From positions 620,001 through 684,000 of the forward strand of contig NC_017527.1 of assembly GCF_000235565.1 (NCBI RefSeq): a stretch of 64,000 nt of DNA. Reading direction: 5' to 3'. Positions 14,616-57,700 of this stretch are shown one piece after another. Under the pieces are notes generated by a model, which did not search any database, was not told the DNA's origin, and worked only from the letters and a program-made list of their open reading frames with translations. This DNA is from Methanothrix harundinacea 6Ac (GTDB taxonomy: Archaea > Halobacteriota > Methanosarcinia > Methanotrichales > Methanotrichaceae). How positions within the stretch are numbered: position 1 is the stretch's first letter; each line of letters begins with the position of its first letter. The position numbers were made by a program, and so were the translations under genes.

Positions 14616-16568
14616 TTATATCGCCCCGCCGGGAACCACCCCCTCCCAACCGCCGGGTGGTCCGTCGACGAGGATCTCGCCGTATCCCGGCAGCTCCCAG
14701 CCGGTTTCGTCACCTGAGGCCGTCGGCTCCTCGGCCCCCTCGCCTGCGGCCTCGGACGAGACCCCGTAGACCCAGGCGACCCCCTCGCCTCCCGTATCCG
14801 AGTTCTGGGACCAGGTGGCGGGGTCTGAGTCTAGGATCATATAATCGCCGGGCCCGATGGCCATGTTCGGCCGCGCCGTCCAGTAGGCGTCGGGGACGCC
14901 GCCCGAACCCGGCAGCCCCGAGGCGGGCCACATCCCCAACACCATCCCCCTTTCGTCCTGGAGGCCGATCATCCCCGGCGCCCTGCCCTGGCCATAGTTC
15001 CAGTGGTAGGTCTTGATCTCGGTGACCGTCCACTCCCGGTCGACGGCGAAGGTGGTGGGGCTGGTGGGGCCGTTCTGGACGGAGCCGAGGGTATTTCGCT
15101 CGAAGATCAGCTCCTGCTCTGAAGTCCGGTCAGCCTCTGATCCGTCTCCCGCTCCATCTTCAGCCTCGACACCTATTCTGTTGCCAAGGGTTGTCTCATC
15201 GCCCTCCTCATCTGCGCTCAGATCCAGGGTTCCAGCAAGGCTCCGATTGATGGTCGAAGTTCCGGATTTCAGATACTCGATCTCTCCACCCTCGGCGATC
15301 TCAGCTGTCAGCTTCGCGCCGGATCCAATGGAGACGTTCGTGAATGAAACGACCTTCGCTGAAGCCTCTCCAATGGGAGCGATGAGGTCGAGGTCCACGA
15401 GGCCGGCGCCGGTCCCCGAGATCTCCAGGCTGTATGCGAGGTCCATCGGGAGGAGGTAGATCTCCACCTCCCCCGACGATAGGACCTCTGCCCCCGGGAT
15501 CTCGTTTATGACCCGGCCGCCGACGGTCCCCACCCTTCGCCCCGCGGGGTCGGTAAAGACGGCGTCGGCAGGACATCGGACCGCCGCCGCGAATCCCCCC
15601 TCCTTCTTTAGGGCCTCGATCCAGCTTTTCGCCATCTCCTTTAGACCCGGGAGGAGGGTGCCCGCCTCCTCCGGGGGCATAGTCCTGAAGACGGGGTTTG
15701 CGGCGATCTTGGTGGGGTCCCTGGACCCATACTTTTGTCCACCGCTCTGAACGGAGTAGTAGAGGAAGCCGTCAAGCCAGAGGAGGGCCACGGGCATCGG
15801 CTTATTCAGACTATCCAGATCTTGCGCAAGGGTGTTTGAGTCGTAGATGTAGACCTGCTTGTAGTCCTTCCCCTCCACCTCCACCAGCTTGTAGGCGAGG
15901 ACGGCGTGGCCCCAGGTACCATTCCCGTCCGGTTTATTCCCCCGGAAGCTGATGATCAGAGGTCTCCGATCCTCTTTCAGGGAGCGCTTTACAGCTTCGT
16001 AGGTCCTGGCCTGGCTCTCGCTGCTGCTCGATCCGTAACCTCTATCGAAGTAGAGGTTCGCGTCCGAGAGGATCGACCTCATCACCGGGACCATCTGGGC
16101 GCGGTGGTAGATGTCTATATTCTGGCTCGCCTCCTCAAAAGACATCTGATGAGTCTTCTTCGATACCGGCCGCAGGGACGGATCGGAGAAGTAGAGGGCG
16201 GAGGTGGCGGCCATCCCGTAACAGTGGCCCCCAGCCCCCAGCATATAGCTCTCGTTGAAGTAATTCCAGAGGCGCGTGTAGGTGGTGGGGAAGAAGAGGC
16301 GGAGCCAGAGCTCCTTCTCCAGGGAGGTTGGGATGCCGGCGGCGACGGTGGCGATCAGCTCCTCGGCCAGCTCCTCGGTCTTGCTCTCGTTGAAGTTGTA
16401 GTTTCTGAAGCCGTAGGCATCGTCGACGGCGCTGTAGGCCCGCTCCCCGTTGGAGGCGTAGTAGACGTTGACGGTGATGGAGATGAAGTCGTCGTCGGGG
16501 TCGACGTCGACGGCTCCGGGGACGTAGGCCTGGGCGAATAAAACTTGTTGAAGATGAATTAGAAACAA
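14616..16568 (-). CDS. secreted papain-like cysteine peptidase-type protein, 3' part of a split gene
   Basis: The 650-residue frame carries a probable papain-fold triad: Cys116 in GGHCYGMA, His221 in TWGHAVLAYKL and Asp243/Asn245 in YIYDSN. It is followed by beta-rich domains and a C-terminal module (WTVTEIKTYHWN ... GPGDYMILDSDP) of an extracellular type. It has no signal peptide of its own; its first 11 codons (MFLIHLQQVLF) come from an insertion, and its true N-terminus is the gene at 16559-17557. Deleting 74 bp of the insertion would join both into one 955-residue secreted protein. Peptidase activity is an inference from motif order; transglutaminase-like or bacteriocin-processing-like roles are possible. 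Confidence 0.7.
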   Translation of the reverse strand: MFLIHLQQVLFAQAYVPGAVDVDPDDDFISITVNVYYASNGERAYSAVDDAYGFRNYNFNESKTEELAEELIATVAAGIPTSLEKELWLRLFFPTTYTRLWNYFNESYMLGAGGHCYGMAATSALYFSDPSLRPVSKKTHQMSFEEASQNIDIYHRAQMVPVMRSILSDANLYFDRGYGSSSSESQARTYEAVKRSLKEDRRPLIISFRGNKPDGNGTWGHAVLAYKLVEVEGKDYKQVYIYDSNTLAQDLDSLNKPMPVALLWLDGFLYYSVQSGGQKYGSRDPTKIAANPVFRTMPPEEAGTLLPGLKEMAKSWIEALKKEGGFAAAVRCPADAVFTDPAGRRVGTVGGRVINEIPGAEVLSSGEVEIYLLPMDLAYSLEISGTGAGLVDLDLIAPIGEASAKVVSFTNVSIGSGAKLTAEIAEGGEIEYLKSGTSTINRSLAGTLDLSADEEGDETTLGNRIGVEAEDGAGDGSEADRTSEQELIFERNTLGSVQNGPTSPTTFAVDREWTVTEIKTYHWNYGQGRAPGMIGLQDERGMVLGMWPASGLPGSGGVPDAYWTARPNMAIGPGDYMILDSDPATWSQNSDTGGEGVAWVYGVSSEAAGEGAEEPTASGDETGWELPGYGEILVDGPPGGWEGVVPGGAI

Positions 16569-16610
16569 ATCCAGTCGACGTCGACGGCTCCGGGGACGTA
16601 GGCCTGGGCG
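16500..16610. repeat. 37-bp direct repeat flanking a 37-bp AT-rich insert
   Basis: 16500-16536 and 16574-16610 are identical (37 bp). Between them, 16537-16573 is a 37-bp AT-rich segment unlike the GC-rich gene around it. The outer sequences fit one continuous reading frame encoding AQAYVPGAVDVDPDDD. The structure is that of an insertion with target duplication, adding 74 bp (not a multiple of 3) and so breaking the gene. Confidence 0.9.
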
Positions 16611-17557
16611 CCCAGGACCGCGCCCTCCACGTTCTCTCCTCCGAGGTCCCAGTAGATCGAAGCGGCCCGTCCCCCTCCCGGCGGGACGCTCCCCACCGGT
16701 ACGGGGTCGCCGAGCTTCGAGCGCTCTTCGCCGGGCATCTGGAGGTAGAACTGGATGTAGACGTTCTCGGCCACCTCATCTCCGGCGTTGAATACCTGGG
16801 CCTGGACCGCCTGCTCGCCGGCGGATTTCTCTTGAAGAGGCCTGTAGTTCTCGCCCCCCAGGAAGGATCCATGGTATTGGTAGCCCATGATCAGGCTCAG
16901 GTCCTCCCTCATCCTCAGGTTCACCTGGACCGCAGGCTTCGTCCTCGAGACCTTGTCCAGCCAGAGGGAGGCGATCTTCCTGTCGTTCTCGTCATGGCTC
17001 CCGAAGATGGTGCATGCCAGGTTCCTGTACCAGATGTAGGGGCCGGCGCAAGCCCCCTCGCCGCCGAATCGGCTGTCGAGGGGATCGATGACGTTCGAGA
17101 CGTATTCGAACCCCTCTGGAGGAGGGATCTCGCCATAGACGTCCACCATCGTCTTCTCCCAGGCGGCCCTGGCCTGAGCCGCGGTCTCGTAGACGTAGAC
17201 GGAGAGGAGGTAGTTTCCGCCGATGCAGTCGTAGACCTCCTCCGGGTCGGGCCTGCAGATGTTCTCGTGGACCTCGACGAAGGCGAACCTCTCCACGTCG
17301 GCCTTCCCGTCCCTCATGACCGCCGCCTCGGCGGCCCGGGCCTCGGCGCTTATATCGCCCGCGACGTGCAGGTCGGCGGGGAGGTCAGAGTCCAGGAGGA
17401 CGTAGTCTGACGGATTTATCTCCTCGATCCAATCGGGGACTTTCGGCTCCTCATCCGCCATCCCAGGAGTTGCCGCCTGGCCCAAAAGAGCCGCTGCCAA
17501 AGAAATGAGAATCGCGACTCGAATACTTTTCCATCCTCCGCCGACGTCTTTACACAT
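16559..17557 (-). CDS. N-terminal part of the split secreted protein
   Basis: A 332-residue frame with a signal peptide (basic start, then VAILISLAAALLGQAATPGMA, cleavage near residue 34). The mature part has an alpha/beta domain with several cysteines (ENICRPDPEEVYDC, EGACAG, ACTIFG), then a beta-sandwich with QAQVFNAGDEVAENVYIQFY, resembling CARDB-type adhesion modules. It ends AQAYVPGAVDVDWICF where the last four residues come from the insert at 16537-16573. Just before that point the sequence is the same as the start of the downstream frame, showing that both belonged to one gene. On its own it could still be exported as a truncated protein. Confidence 0.75.
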   Translation of the reverse strand: MCKDVGGGWKSIRVAILISLAAALLGQAATPGMADEEPKVPDWIEEINPSDYVLLDSDLPADLHVAGDISAEARAAEAAVMRDGKADVERFAFVEVHENICRPDPEEVYDCIGGNYLLSVYVYETAAQARAAWEKTMVDVYGEIPPPEGFEYVSNVIDPLDSRFGGEGACAGPYIWYRNLACTIFGSHDENDRKIASLWLDKVSRTKPAVQVNLRMREDLSLIMGYQYHGSFLGGENYRPLQEKSAGEQAVQAQVFNAGDEVAENVYIQFYLQMPGEERSKLGDPVPVGSVPPGGGRAASIYWDLGGENVEGAVLGAQAYVPGAVDVDWICF

Positions 17558-23830: not shown

Positions 23831-26800
23831 TTAATCAGCATTCTCCAGCCGGAGTAGGTGGATTCTCCCCGACGACTCGCCGGCTACAATGGTGGCGCCA
23901 TCGGGCGCTATGGCGCAGCAAAGGATCGGACCGTCGGCGGTGAAGGTGGCGATGACTTCGCCCTTCCCCAGGTCCCATACCTTGAGGGTCTGATCATCGG
24001 AAGCAGATACCGTTTTTTGACCGTCTGGGGTCACCACTACAGCGTTGACCCAGTCTGAATGACCTTTCAGGGTCCGCAGCTCTTCTCCCCTCTCGAGGTC
24101 CCACACCTTGAGGGTCCGATCATCGCAAGCCGATATCGCTTTTCGACCGTCGGGGGTCACCGCCACCGCACTGACCGAAGCTGAATGACCTTTCAGGGTC
24201 CGTATCTCCTCGCCCTTTTCCAGGTCCCACACCTTGAGGGTTTTATCACCGGAAGAAGATACAGCTTTTCGACCGTCGGGGGTCAAAGCCACCGCGCTGA
24301 CTGAAGCTGAATGACCTTTCAGGGTCTGCAGCTCTTCTCCCCGCTCGAGGTCCCATACCTTGAGGGTCTTATCACCGGAAGAAGATACAGCTTTTCGACC
24401 ATCGGGGGTCACCGCCACCGCGTTGACCCAATTTGAATGACCTTTCAGGGTCCGCAGCTCTTCTCCCCGCTCGAGGTCCCATACCTTGAGGGTCTGATCA
24501 CCGGAAGAAGATACAGCTTTTCGACCGTCTGGGGTCACTGCCACCGCTCTGACCGAAGCTGAATGACCTTTCAGGGTCCGTATCTCCTCGCCCTTTTCCA
24601 GGTCCCACACCTTGAGGGTCTGATCACCGGAAGCAGATACAGCTTTTCGACCGTCCGGGGTTACTGCCACCGCACTGACCGAAGCTGAATGACCTTTCAG
24701 GGTCAGTATCTCCTCGCCCTTTTCCAGGTCCCACACCTTGAGGGTCTGATCACCGGAAGCAGATACAGCTTTTCGACCGTCTGGGGTTACTGCCACTGCT
24801 CTGACCGAAGCTGAATGACCTTTCAGGGTCAGTATCTCCTCGCCCTTTTCCAGGTCCCAGACCTTGAGGGTGTTATCGTATGATCCCGATACCGCCCTCC
24901 TACCGTCCGGGCTGACCGCTACCGCACTGACCCAACCGTAATGGCCTTTCAGGGTCCTTATCTCCTCGCCCCGTTCCAGGTCCCAGACCTTGAGGGTGTT
25001 ATCGTATGATCCCGATAACGCCCTCCGCCCGTCGGGGCTGACTGCCACTGCACTGACCCAATTGGAATGGCCTTTCAGGGTCCTTATCTCCTCGCCCCGT
25101 TCCAGGTCCCAGACCTTGAGGGTGTTATCGTATGATGCCGATACTGCCCTCCGACCGTCAGGGCTGACCGCCACCGCGTTGACCCAACTGGAATGGCCTT
25201 TCAGGGTGCGGAGGAGGGGGGTTCCCGGCGGCATCAGGTTCGGGGTCAGGGGGCGGATCCAGGGTTCGTCTCCTTTCTCCCCTGCCCCATCGAGCAATGC
25301 CTGTATCGAGGAGGAGGGCAGAGCCATCAGACGGCCCAAGATCTGGCTTGCGAGCTGAGCTTTGTCGACGGAGATGACGTGAGCCGAAAGCCGGAGAGCA
25401 TCTCGAACAAGGACCGCATCAGGATCGGTGAGAAGATCGTAGTCCACCAGAAGGGAGGGGACGTCTGTGGCCGCGAGCTTCGCCTTGATCCAATTGAAAT
25501 CGAAGAGAAGAGCCCGCAGCTCATCTTCCTGCCCCGCCTCTTTCAGATGGCGGGCAAGATGCTGGAAGAAGTAGCCGTCTTTGGGGCCTTCGGCCCAGGC
25601 ACTGGGGGATCTACTATTATTTAAATACTTCGCACTATATGACTCCAGAAGTTGGTCGTGGAGAGTCTTCAGGTCTCCAGCCTGCTTTCTCACGTAGTCG
25701 AACGTGAGGTCGTGGAGGCTGAGGCGGCCTTCGTCGTCCCTCAGAAGCAGCGACCGATCGACCAGGAGCTTGATCACCTCGGGAGGAGTGAACTCTTTTC
25801 CTTCCCAGAAAGTCTGGAGCGCTGCCTCCGGGATGGGGATATCCTCTGGAAATACGGCCAGATCGAGGTATCGGGCCCGAAACTCCGGCTCCAGCGCATC
25901 CACGCTGACTTGAATGGCCTTCAAGAGGTCTGGATAGGGATAATCCGGGAACTGCTCTCTGATCTTCTCCAGATCGGCGTTTTGTAGCCTCTCCAGCGCG
26001 ACTGTCCATAGATCCGGCATCCCCTTGACCATAGCTCCCACCATGGCCAGTGCCAGAGGGAGGTTCCCGCACTCCTTTGCCACTTCGAGGGCCAGAGAAG
26101 GCAGCTCTTCTTTGGATTGGCCGGTCCACTTTGCCAGGAGCGACAGAGCTTCGTCGTCGTCCAAAACGCCCAGCCTGTGCTCCTGGGCGTCGAGGGCTGT
26201 GATTATCTTCGCGTCCCGGGTGGTGATCAGCATCTTGGAGCCCGATCCCAGGATGTTGAACCCTTCGACGTGCTCGACGTTCCAGACGTCGTCCAATATT
26301 ATAAGACAGACCTTATCGGCCAGAAGGCTGCTGAGATGAGATTTGCCCTCCTGGATATCGTTGAAGGCATGGGGGACGTCCCCCAGCATCACCGCTAGGT
26401 CGGACTGCCTCTGGAGGAGCTTAGGATTTATGCCCAAGGTCAGCCACAGGATACCGTCGGGAAAGGCCCGCTGCGTCTCCTCATCACGGGCCACCGCCGC
26501 TGCCATCACCGACTTTCCTATCCCGCCCATGCCATGCAATCCGACCTTGGATGCTCCGGTGACCACCACTGGTTCGTCGGCTTTGGCCAATATCAAGTCC
26601 TTTATCTTATCGAGATCGTCAGGACGGGGCAGGAAGTGGGGCGGCAGCTCCGGGACGTTGATAATCTTGGTTTTTGGCTTGCTCCTGTCGGATTCGTCCC
26701 CACTAGTCTTCTTTCTTAGCCATCCTACAATTTTATCTTTAATTTTACTCAGCATGTGGTATGTCCATTCGATCAGAGCGAGCGCTGCTGTTAGAATCGC

Positions 26801-51733: not shown

Positions 51734-54700
51734 GACCTATGAGAAATATCCTCCTCTTCGCCACCTTAGCTCTGATCTTGGCCCCCGCCGCCCTGGCCAC
51801 GGAGAGCATCACGTATTGCCAGCAGTTGACGCCCTTGAATACGAATTGGGATCGGCAGAGCGTCCTTCCGAAGTTCGACCCGAGCCTGGGAACTCTGGTC
51901 AAAGTTGAATTGAACGGTACGCTGAACTGGACCCAGCTTGTGAGGTTTGAGCACGTCGTTTCTGAGAGTGATGCCAACATCACAATCGAGCAATGGGTAT
52001 ATTTCGAGTTGACCATGCATGACAATACTCTCCTCACCAATGAGTGGGAGAACTATAGCGAATGGTATGTCACTAAATATGATAATGTGACAGATTATGG
52101 TGGCACTTCCGGGTTCAACTTTACAAATGTAAATCTCACGTCTACCTCGAGGAAGAACTACACCGATTGCGATGATATCAGCGAGTACATCGCCAGGTTC
52201 CCGGGGGAGACCAAGAGCTTCAGGACTAGGGCCAGGGCTACTGTAGGTGCTGACGGCTCTGGAAACTACGTACTCTCCCCCACAACATCGGCCAGCTCCA
52301 TAGTCTGCGTCACCTACTACTATGACCCTCCGACCTGCATCGAGGGCTACAAGCTCGACGCGGCGAACAACCAGCCTCTGGAGGGCTGGAACATCACCCT
52401 CCAAGACTGTGACGGGAAGGTCATCGGGTGGGATATAACCAACGAGACCGGCTTCTGGAAGATCTGCGGCCTTCAGTGCTGCAACTTCTCCGTCTGCGAG
52501 ATATTGAAGCCTGGATGGATCGCCGTCGATCCGGCATCCGGATGCTATTTAGATCTAAACGCCTCGGAGGGGAACCTCACAGGCTACAACTTCACGAACA
52601 AGAACCTATCCTGCATCTCGGGCTACAAGGTGATCGACTGCGAGGACGTGGACCTATCGGGCTGGAATATCACCCTCTACAACGAGACCGATGTCCTCAT
52701 CGATACCACTACGACGAACGAGACAGGCTACTACCAGTTCTGTGGCCTCGATCACGGGAACTACAAAGTCTGCGAGGAGGTGAAAGATGGTTGGCAGAAT
52801 CTGACCGATATCTGCATAGATGTGGACCTCGGATACGATAATGCCACCGATAAGAACTTCACCAACGTCCCGCTGTTGTGCATCGAGGGCTACAAGGTGA
52901 TCGATTGCGAAGGGTTTGACCTCTCGAACTGGACGATCACCCTCACCAACTCGAGCGGCACCGTCGGAACGACCCTGACTAACGCGACCGGCTGGTACCG
53001 GTTCTGCGACCTGGTTCCGGGCAGCTACACGGTCTGCGAAACCCTCAAACCCGGTTTCACGAACGTCACGCCGACCTGTCTTGATGTGCCTTTGACCTGC
53101 GATAACGCTACGGATAAGAACTTCACCAACGTTCCGCTCCTGTGCATCGAGGGCTACAAGATCATCGACGGGTGCGAAGGAGCCGACCACTCGAACTGGA
53201 CGATCACCCTCACCAACTCGAGCGGCACCGTCGGAACGACCCTGACCAACGCGACCGGATGGTACCGGTTCTGCGACCTGGTTCCCGGGAGTTACACGGT
53301 CTGCGAAACCCTCAAGCCCGGTTTCACGAACGTCAGCCCGACCTGTCTTGATGTGCCTTTGACCTGCGATAACGTTACGGATAAGAACTTCACTAACATC
53401 CCGCTCCTGTGCATCGAAGGCTACAAGATCATCCATGGTTGCGAAGGAGCCGACCACTCGAACTGGACGATCACCCTCACCAACTCGAGCGGCACCGTCG
53501 GAACGACTCTGACCAACGCCACCGGATGGTACCGGTTCTGCGACCTGGTCCCCGGCATCTACACGGTCTGCGAAACCGTCAAGCCCGGTTTCACGAACGT
53601 CACGCCGACCTGTATCGATGTGCCTTTGACCTGCGATAACGTTACGGATAAGAACTTCAGGAACGTCCCGCTCCTGTGCATCGAAGGCTACAAGATCATC
53701 GATGGTTGCGAAGGAGCCGACCACTCGAACTGGACGATCACCCTCACCAACTCGAGCGGCACCGTCGGAACGACTCTGACCAACGCTACCGGATGGTACC
53801 GGTTCTGCGACCTGGTCCCCGGCATCTACACGGTCTGCGAAACCGTCAAGCCCGGTTTCACGAACGTCACGCCGACCTGTATCGATGTGCCTTTGACCTG
53901 CGATAACGTTACGGATAAGAACTTCAGGAACGTCCCGCTCCTGTGCATCGAAGGCTACAAGATCATCGATGGGTGCGAAGGAGCCGACCACTCGAACTGG
54001 ACGATCACCCTCACCAACTCGAGCGGCACCGTCGGAACGACTCTGACCAACGCGACCGGATGGTACCGTTTCTGCGACCTGGTCCCCGGCATCTACACGG
54101 TCTGCGAAACCGTCAAACCCGGTTTCACGAACGTTACACCGACCTGTCTTGATGTGCCTTTGACCTGCGATAACGTTACCGAAAAGAACTTCAGGAACGT
54201 CCCGCTCCTCTGCATCGGCGGCCACAAGATCATCGATTGTGAAGGCTCGGACCTCTCGAACTGGACGATCACCCTCTACAACGCCACGACGAACCAGCCG
54301 ATCAATACGACGACGACTAACGCCACGGGCTGGTACATCTTCTGCGATCTCGTCCCCGGCGATTACGCTGTAGAGGAGACGGTCAAGCCCGGCTACGTGA
54401 ACTTCAGCGCGAAGAGGGTTCCCGTGACCCTCGACTGCGACAACGTCCTGGACAAAGACTTCGAGAACGTCCCGCTCCTCTGCATCGGCGGCCACAAGAT
54501 CATCGATTGTGAAGGCTCGGACCTCTCGAACTGGACGATCACCCTCTACAACGCCACGACGAACCAGCCGATCAATACGACGACGACAAACGCCACGGGC
54601 TGGTACAGCTTCTGCGGTCTCGTCCCCGGCGATTACGCTGTAGAAGAGACGATAAAACCCGGCTACGTGAACTTCAGCGCGAAGAGGGTTCCCGTGACCC

Positions 54701-57700
54701 TCGACTGCGACAACGTCCTGGACAAAGACTTCGAGAACGTCCCGCTCCTCTGCATCGGCGGCAATAAGACCAACGACACAGGCGCCAGGCTCCCCGGCTG
54801 GACGATCGAGGTCTACGTCAACGGCACCCAGACCAAAGTCGGCGAGAACACCACCGACTCGGAGGGTGAGTGGATCGTCTGCGACCTATTGCCTGGGACC
54901 TACGACGTCAAGGAGGTTGTCGATGCCGGTTGGACCCCCATCGACCCCGCCGACGGCTGGCATCGGGGAGTTGTCCTGGATTGTGAAAAGACGACTCTCG
55001 GGATCGACTTCGTCAACAGCAACAAGTCCTGCCTCGGCGGCAAAAAGACGAACGACACAGGCGCGAGGCTCCCTGGCTGGACGATCGAGGTCTACGTCAA
55101 CGGCACCCAGACCAAAGTCGGCGAGAACGTAACCGACTCGAAGGGTGAGTGGATCGTCTGCGACCTATTGCCCGGGACCTACGACGTCAAGGAGGTTGTC
55201 GATGCCGGTTGGACCCCCATCAACCCCGCCGACGGCTGGCACCGAGGCGTCGTCCTCGGCGGCAGCGAGACGAACCTCGAGATCGACTTCGTCAACAGCA
55301 ACAAGTCCTGCCTCGGCGGTAAAAAGACGAACGACACAGGCGTGACGCTTCCCGGCTGGAAGATCGAGGTCTACGTCAACGGCACCGAGACCAAGGTCGG
55401 CGAGAACACCACCGACTCGGAGGGTGAGTGGATCATCTGCGACCTGCTTCCGGGCGTATACGACGTCAAAGAGGTCCTCAAGGTCGGTTGGGAGCCGATC
55501 GATCCAGTAGACGGCTGGCACCGGGGGGTCGTCCTCAACGGCAGCGAGACGAAGCTCGAGATCGACTTCATGAACAACTTCACTTCCAGATGCATAGATG
55601 GTCACAAGTACGATTACTCCAATAAGACCCCCCTCGAAGGCTGGAACATAACCGTCACAGATAGCTCTGGCACGGTGGTTGGAAACGCCACCACCGACGA
55701 TGAGGGATACTGGAAGATCTGCGGCCTCGCTTTCGGCGAAAATTACACCGTCTGCGAAGAGTTGAAGGAAGGGTGGACCTCGATAATTCCTCCCGACGGC
55801 TGCTTCTACAACGTCGTATTGGTCTCAGATCAGAACCTGACCTTGGACTTCTACAACGACCCCCGTAACCTCACCATCAAGAAGGTGGCGGACAAGTACG
55901 AGGTCCAGGAGTGCGACGAGGTCACCTACACCATCACCGTCTGCAACAACGGCGGCGTCCCCGTCAGAAACGTCACCGTCTGGGACAGGTTCGATAAAGA
56001 AGTCGAGATCCTCTCGATGACCCCCGCCCCCGGCCCCGACCGGAAGTGGCACTTTGACGAGATTCCAGCGCGGACGTGTGTGACGATCACGATAAAGATC
56101 AAGGTCCCCGAGCGGCAGGACTTCGAGTTTGGGATGGAGCAGGGCGTCCGCGGCGAGGGCTTCGTCAAGGTGGCCAACGACTACAGCACCACCTTCAAGG
56201 AATACTGCATCTGTAACTGCGCCTACGTCACCAGCGACTGGAACGAGAAGCCGCTCTCCGATTGTGTCTGTATTACAGTAGGCGCGGATATCGGAACGGA
56301 ACTCCAGACCCGGGAGTACGGCTCCGGCCTCTTCGAAGCCGAGGAGCGGGTTGCGGTCTTCACGAAGAACAAGTCGATCGAGTGGGAGGAGGACGTCTCG
56401 GCGACCTACAAGCCTACCTCGATCACCCTCTACCAGAACCGCACCGTCGACTACGACTCGGCCTGGGTTAAGAAGGCGAGGGCGAAGAACTACGTCACCG
56501 GGACGACGATGACGGAGACGTACCACGACGCGACCTGGCTGGACCGGGAGTCGAGGATGTTCCTCGACAAGAACCAGTCGGTGATGGAGGTCGACAGCTC
56601 CTTCGACGGCCGGGGCCACGTGGGCTTCCTCAAGATGCCGACGAACAGGTCGTCGCCCCAGACGACGCCGCTGATCGAGGTCCGGGAGGACTACGTCGGG
56701 AGCTTCAAGGTCGTCCAGAAGATCGACGAGTACGGCAAGGGCGTCTCCTACGAGAAGGCGGCCTCCGGCGGCGGCCTGGTGGTGGGCGACCGGCGTATCG
56801 GAGGGAGCCAGAGGAGCTACGAGTCGGGGTCGGGCGCCTACGACTCCGAGGAGGTCATCGAGACCTATACGAACTACATAGCAAAAGACATCAGCCTCGT
56901 TTACGCCCCGACGACGACGAGGCTGACCGACGACGTCTGGATCAACAGCTCGATGAAGTGGAAGGAGGGTCTCTATTCGAGGGTCCCGGCCAGAAGCTAC
57001 ATCGGCGAGGAGTACACTGGGGTCACCGAGCTGGATAAGGAGACGGTGGCGAGGGGCTTGAACGAGATGGAGACCTCGGCCGACTTCTCGGGGCAGGCCC
57101 GGTACAGGGCGGTGTTCGCCGATCCGAACGATACGAAGAGGCCTTTCGTCGAGTTCGATGAGGTTTACGCCGGCGACTACTCGATCGAGCGGCGGGTCCT
57201 CCTAAAGGGTACGTCCAAGTACGACCGGCCCCACCTGAACGTCACCAAGACCCTGGACGGGATCGTCGAAGAGAAGGACAAGTGCGACGGCGACAACTGC
57301 AGCAAGACGAAGTACATAGCGACCTACACCATCCGGATTGAGAACGACGGGAACAGGGCGTTTATACCTGTCAACGTCCAGGACCTCTTCCCGCCGGGGG
57401 CGGTCTTCCTCGAGTCGTCTTTGAGGCCGACGGAGCTGACGGATAGTTACGCCAACTGGAACCTGACGCACCTATCGATAGGTGACGTCGCGGTGATAAC
57501 CCTGAAGCTCGACGTTGCCAAGTACTATCCGTCGGAGCTGGTGAACAGGGTCGAGGTCTGCGGCGAGTACGATGGCGAGTGGATCTGCTTTGCTAACTCC
57601 AGCGCCCTGGAGGTGAACTGGCTTACATGTTGTTTGAACGAGACGGTCTCGGTGGTTAAGAGCTGCGAGGTCGACGGTGCTGACGGGATGGTGGTCCTGT

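Follow-up and report, generated by a model that had tools for sequence, protein, structure and literature searches.

A spacer-sized, virus-like insertion that splits a gene of Methanothrix harundinacea 6Ac: probable off-target integration by the archaeon's own CRISPR adaptation machinery

Off-target integration of spacers, together with the genesis of new arrays of clustered regularly interspaced short palindromic repeats (neo-CRISPR genesis), was reportedly described by Nivala, Shipman and Church in 2018. The in-vivo events are said to have come mostly from overexpression in Escherichia coli, where the sites resembled the native locus, along with a few putative natural cases that included Yersinia pestis and Sulfolobus islandicus. 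In the native reaction of Streptococcus thermophilus, the distance to the second integration site is set by a ruler (PMC6895254). Here, we describe a candidate natural case from Methanothrix (Methanosaeta) harundinacea 6Ac, whose genome of 2,571,034 bp comprises two contigs, a plasmid (contig 1; 11,991 bp) and a chromosome (contig 2; 2,559,043 bp). Within the 64,000-nucleotide stretch of chromosome that was analyzed (C2:620001-684000; hereafter, the window), a gene is split at window positions 16500-16610 by a short AT-rich insert between two copies of a host sequence, and off-target (non-canonical) spacer integration by the genome's own Cas4/1-Cas2 very likely explains the insertion.

The two copies of the duplicated target, GTCGACGTCGACGGCTCCGGGGACGTAGGCCTGGGCG, lie at 16500-16536 and 16574-16610 (neither assigned to a strand) and are the same over 37 bp. 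Between them sits the spacer-like insert AATAAAACTTGTTGAAGATGAATTAGAAACAAATCCA (16537-16573, minus strand), with a GC content of 24% versus approximately 62% in the window, where equally AT-rich 37-mers account for only 0.6%. The initial annotation had described two identical 37-bp copies around an AT-rich, 37-bp insert, and both its coordinates and the composition were verified. The same sequence can be read as a duplication plus insert of 37+37, 36+38 or 35+39 bp, since the insert's final base may match the target-adjacent base by chance; the real length of the duplication is 36 or 37 bp, with the boundary uncertain by a single base. The junctions are clean, their ambiguity being at most about one base. 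When chromosome and plasmid were searched for the insert, as had been suggested, it occurred only once, and no match was found in eight congeners, where as many as three mismatches were tolerated. This bears on an artefact of assembly or sequencing, a possibility raised at the outset. The structure does rest on one published genome assembly, but with no second copy of the insert in chromosome or plasmid, no internal mis-join could have supplied it. Furthermore, the 111-bp structure is shorter than the 236-bp mean 454 read, and the genome was sequenced to 26x coverage, with Sanger gap closure and finishing and the resequencing of low-quality regions (PMC3349665). On this assembly-level evidence, an artefact is very unlikely.

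The split gene is encoded on the minus strand. Its 5' piece (16611-17557) carries the N-terminal part, with a signal-peptide-like start, and its frame reads through copy 2 before closing inside the insert by frameshift. The frame of the 3' piece (14616-16499) also reads copy 1; this piece has no Pfam match and holds candidate Cys/His residues, noted by inspection, in GGHCYGM and WGHAVLAY. Omitting 74 bp joins the two into one open frame that encodes 955 aa without an internal stop (956 codons when the terminal stop is counted), thereby reproducing the 955-codon frame first reported. A comparison with related strains, also proposed in the initial annotation, was run and yielded three relatives within the genus whose homologues extend through the insertion site: L006 of genome G004 (78% identity), L007 of G006 (70% identity), and L010 of G005. 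All three align across the site gap-free and possess exactly one uninterrupted 37-bp unit, and the frame is open and stop-free through the site, at 1190 codons in G004 and 1279 codons in G006. In G005, conservation is confined to the site and the initial portion of the gene; similarity ends roughly 30 bp past the insertion site, and the C-terminal half appears to be different or missing. Given the single copy at the site in relatives, the insertion and its target duplication arose in the 6Ac lineage, and sequence comparison accordingly marks the empty site as ancestral and the 6Ac structure as derived. The gene, a 955-codon secreted-protein gene when intact, is probably inactive in 6Ac.

The same comparison bears on the idea that the site is a genuine CRISPR mini-array or a functional gene boundary. 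Its geometry is indeed that of two repeats and one spacer, but the putative “repeat” is ordinary coding sequence, present as one conserved copy in relatives, and bears no relation to the native repeat. Conservation of the whole structure in homologues, which the initial annotation had named as the sign of a real boundary, was looked for in the three relatives, and each has a single copy. A mini-array or boundary is vanishingly unlikely, and no CRISPR RNA (crRNA) is expected from 16500-16610 because the unit that was copied there differs from the native repeat.

The machinery that could have made the insertion is encoded elsewhere on the chromosome. The sole Cas1 match in the genome (C2:1828671-1829585) lies inside a 573-aa Cas4/Cas1 fusion (L004:6-1727), which is followed by a 98-aa Cas2 (L004:1732-2028). 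The best PADLOC models are Cas1g (571 bits) for Cas4/1 and Cas2g for Cas2, while the closest solved structure is the Cas4/Cas1 fusion 7mi4 (536 bits), with the Cas1 blocks GIEG, GFYH, and LALDMM kept. By these matches the fusion classifies as type I-G-like, and the two proteins, full length and with conserved Cas1 blocks, look functional. Adjoining cas4/1-cas2 is an array of 40 repeats of CTATCCATGGCTGAAAAGTCGTGGCCCCATTGAAAC (36 nt) and 39 spacers of 35-44 nt (mean 38.5, commonest 37, median 37); the degenerate repeats at its far end place the leader on the cas2 side. Effector genes by the array encode the type III-B proteins Cmr1, Cas10/Cmr2, Cmr3, Cmr4, Cmr5, and Cmr6, accompanied by CARF and SAVED genes, and no Cas3 was found in the genome at the curated cut-off. 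In this region (L004:5369-13789), adaptation genes of a type I-G-like kind (Cas4/1 and Cas2) are paired with a Cmr effector of type III-B.

That the only cas1 belongs to a CRISPR-Cas locus argues against a remnant of a transposon, a miniature inverted-repeat transposable element (MITE), or a casposon. A target duplication around foreign DNA would be in keeping with such elements, but the 37-bp insert lacks terminal inverted repeats at its ends, is single-copy, and is bordered by a 37-bp duplication that far exceeds the usual size. A remnant of this kind is extremely unlikely, and the casposon variant of the initial annotation is not supported.

In its dimensions, the insertion matches the native array. 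The duplication (36 or 37 bp, given its ambiguity) compares with a native repeat of 36 nt, the insert (37-38 bp) compares with native spacers of 35-44 nt whose commonest length is 37, and the GC fraction of the insert (0.24) falls inside the native spacer range, the lowest of which is 0.22. The native values thus make 16500-16610 equivalent to one native-size repeat-spacer unit, for which the 36+38 reading is permitted. A CRISPR-type integration geometry had been suggested at the start, and it is strongly supported by the native 36-nt duplications, the 35-44-nt inserts, and the viral-looking insert. Error-prone repair would yield the same anatomy, if a staggered double-strand break with an offset of about 37 nt had been filled in and a stray viral fragment captured as filler, and the capture of loose viral DNA would account for the foreign insert. 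However, nothing in such repair ties both lengths to the native array values, and the clean junctions likewise speak against it, as does a scan of a 412-kb sample of the genome that revealed no similar duplication of another length with foreign filler. The other close exact duplications in the sample (at least 22 bp, within 200 bp) differ in size and spacing, and many sit in tandem-repeat stretches. Repair is, on balance, an unlikely source.

Other repeats occur in the window. A second direct repeat (48967/49069) was considered and rejected, having a 102-bp period and a TPR-like character. Long tandem repeats with periods of 126 bp (42 aa) and 267-279 bp are seen at 23968-25207 and 52849-55576, and probably represent repeat-domain proteins.

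The origin of the insert can be approached through its coding capacity. Read from its second base, the reverse complement encodes GFVSNSSSTSFI, a peptide that recurs as an N-terminal motif in viral proteins. When this peptide was back-translated into a DNA pattern of full degeneracy, eight IMG/VR contigs matched, in every one of which the peptide stands at the N-terminus of an open reading frame (ORF), at a constant position and in the form MKxRxGFVSNSSS(S/T)SFI or near it. No IMG/VR matches were obtained with a reversed-peptide control of equal degeneracy or with the insert's two other stop-free frames. At the nucleotide level, one of the viral contigs (L028) is identical to the insert at 31 of 37 positions. 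Across the eight viral stretches the motif starts 26 ORFs, with a maximum of six per stretch, and it was found neither with its N-terminal context in 238 genomes of the class nor in the native spacers of the 6Ac array. A tblastn search of phages with the viral motif gave no match, probably through masking of the serine run by the low-complexity filter. Judged by this coding signature, the insert very probably derives from a viral gene belonging to the GFVSNSSSTSFI motif family, as expected of a spacer.

The conserved N-terminus MKxRxGFVSNSSSSSF(I/V) is found on many otherwise unlike small viral proteins, several per contig (L024-L031), including the ORFs at L028:4375-4803 and L028:4810-5214 and six in L030. 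A full-text literature search for its core found no paper. The peptide may serve as a tag for processing or targeting.

Several points weigh against off-target integration by Cas4/1-Cas2. The exact protospacer was not found, either with exact seeds in IMG/VR and genome contigs or by blastn in phages and plasmids, nor was a protospacer adjacent motif (PAM) found; the source searches returned only short, chance-like matches, and blastn matches to a Paenibacillus TraM and an Acinetobacter fibritin were judged to be chance. As a yardstick, the first 16 native spacers likewise had no phage match, so the missing source says little. At the target, a likeness to the native repeat was checked for and discarded, with 5-9 of 36 identities (9 being expected by chance), and the leader-repeat junction is likewise unlike it. 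Likeness to that junction is a reported preference of off-target integration and does not strictly define it; the off-target sites of S. thermophilus, by comparison, resemble the leader-repeat junction (PMC6895254). On the other side, both edges of the target fall at inverted repeats, which counts in favour of off-target integration, albeit as a post hoc argument. At one edge is a 14-bp perfect palindrome, CCTGGGCGCCCAGG (CCTGGGC/GCCCAGG), whose centre is one base off the edge of a 37-bp duplication and exactly at that of a 36-bp one, and the opposite edge is the midpoint of a 5-bp stem that encloses a 4-nt loop. In a test that was itself devised post hoc, 0.04% of the pairs of window positions separated by 37 bp had equal or greater summed stems.

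Cas1 of S. islandicus binds stem-loops whatever their sequence, and the authors proposed that stem-loops elsewhere in the genome pose an off-target risk (PMC9456107). The non-canonical sites of Francisella novicida Cas1 have a short palindromic end motif in common (PMC13034035). It is tempting to suggest that, in nature, Cas4/1-Cas2 can complete full-site integration at chromosomal sites picked for their shape (a palindrome or hairpin) and not for repeat sequence, which would make the adaptation machinery a constant source of insertional mutation and of viral “fossils” in host genes; we offer this generalization tentatively, as somewhat less than an even prospect.

Off-target integration would have proceeded much as in the array. 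Cas4/1-Cas2 would have taken up a trimmed fragment of about 37 bp from an AT-rich viral gene and, so loaded, would have attached it not at the leader-repeat junction but within the chromosomal gene, one end to each strand at points 36-37 bp from each other. The stretches left single-stranded on either side would then have been filled in and the 36-37-bp target thereby copied, in the manner of repeat duplication in an array. The resulting gain of 74 bp shifts the frame, and the part bearing the signal peptide (from 17557) is no longer joined to the remainder of the protein.

Gap filling would require a polymerase, for which a neighbouring gene is a candidate. A family-A DNA polymerase (PolA), of a kind unusual in archaea, is encoded divergently to cas4/1 (L003:18022-19788; C2:1826024-1827787) at a distance of approximately 217 bp, and the arrangement is retained in G005 (C3). 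This proximity and its retention make the enzyme a candidate gap filler, and it may be dedicated to adaptation. In E. coli, DNA polymerase I is required for adaptation and has been proposed as the gap filler (PMC4678826). Short pieces matching cas4/1 and the polymerase are also seen on three other G005 contigs (C40, C72, and C30), apparently decayed or duplicated copies of the pair.

Taken as a whole, the locus provides a clean natural case, in which relatives keep the empty site, the lengths match the native ones, the insert has a viral coding signature, and a gene is disrupted. It points to a genetic cost of CRISPR adaptation, in that an immune system is able to act as an insertional mutagen, and to a route by which viral sequence can enter host genes. 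It also supplies a search rule (a duplication of repeat length, a gap of spacer length, and foreign composition) that could be used to gauge how frequently such events occur.

The process itself is already known. As in the cases reportedly described by Nivala and colleagues, spacer-size foreign DNA lies outside the array and a repeat-size host chromosomal target has been duplicated; unlike those reported cases, the 6Ac insertion comes from a methanogen whose Cas4/1 is type I-G-like, its target shows no sequence likeness to repeat or leader, and it disrupts a protein gene. Relative to canonical spacer acquisition by type I-G Cas4/1-Cas2 (PMC10504553; 7mi4), the same kind of enzyme is encoded and the product has the same geometry, but integration occurred in coding sequence and not at the leader-repeat junction. 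Integration outside the array is likewise shared with S. thermophilus Cas1-Cas2 in vitro, whereas the 6Ac event is complete and inherited (PMC6895254). Casposons share, in principle, a Cas1-family integrase and target duplication; 6Ac differs in its 37-bp insert, which has no terminal inverted repeats, and in having no casposase, its Cas1 being located in a CRISPR-Cas locus. The new elements here are the host, a methanogen whose integrase is type I-G-like, together with the disruption of one of its genes, the empty-site comparison, and the viral coding signature.
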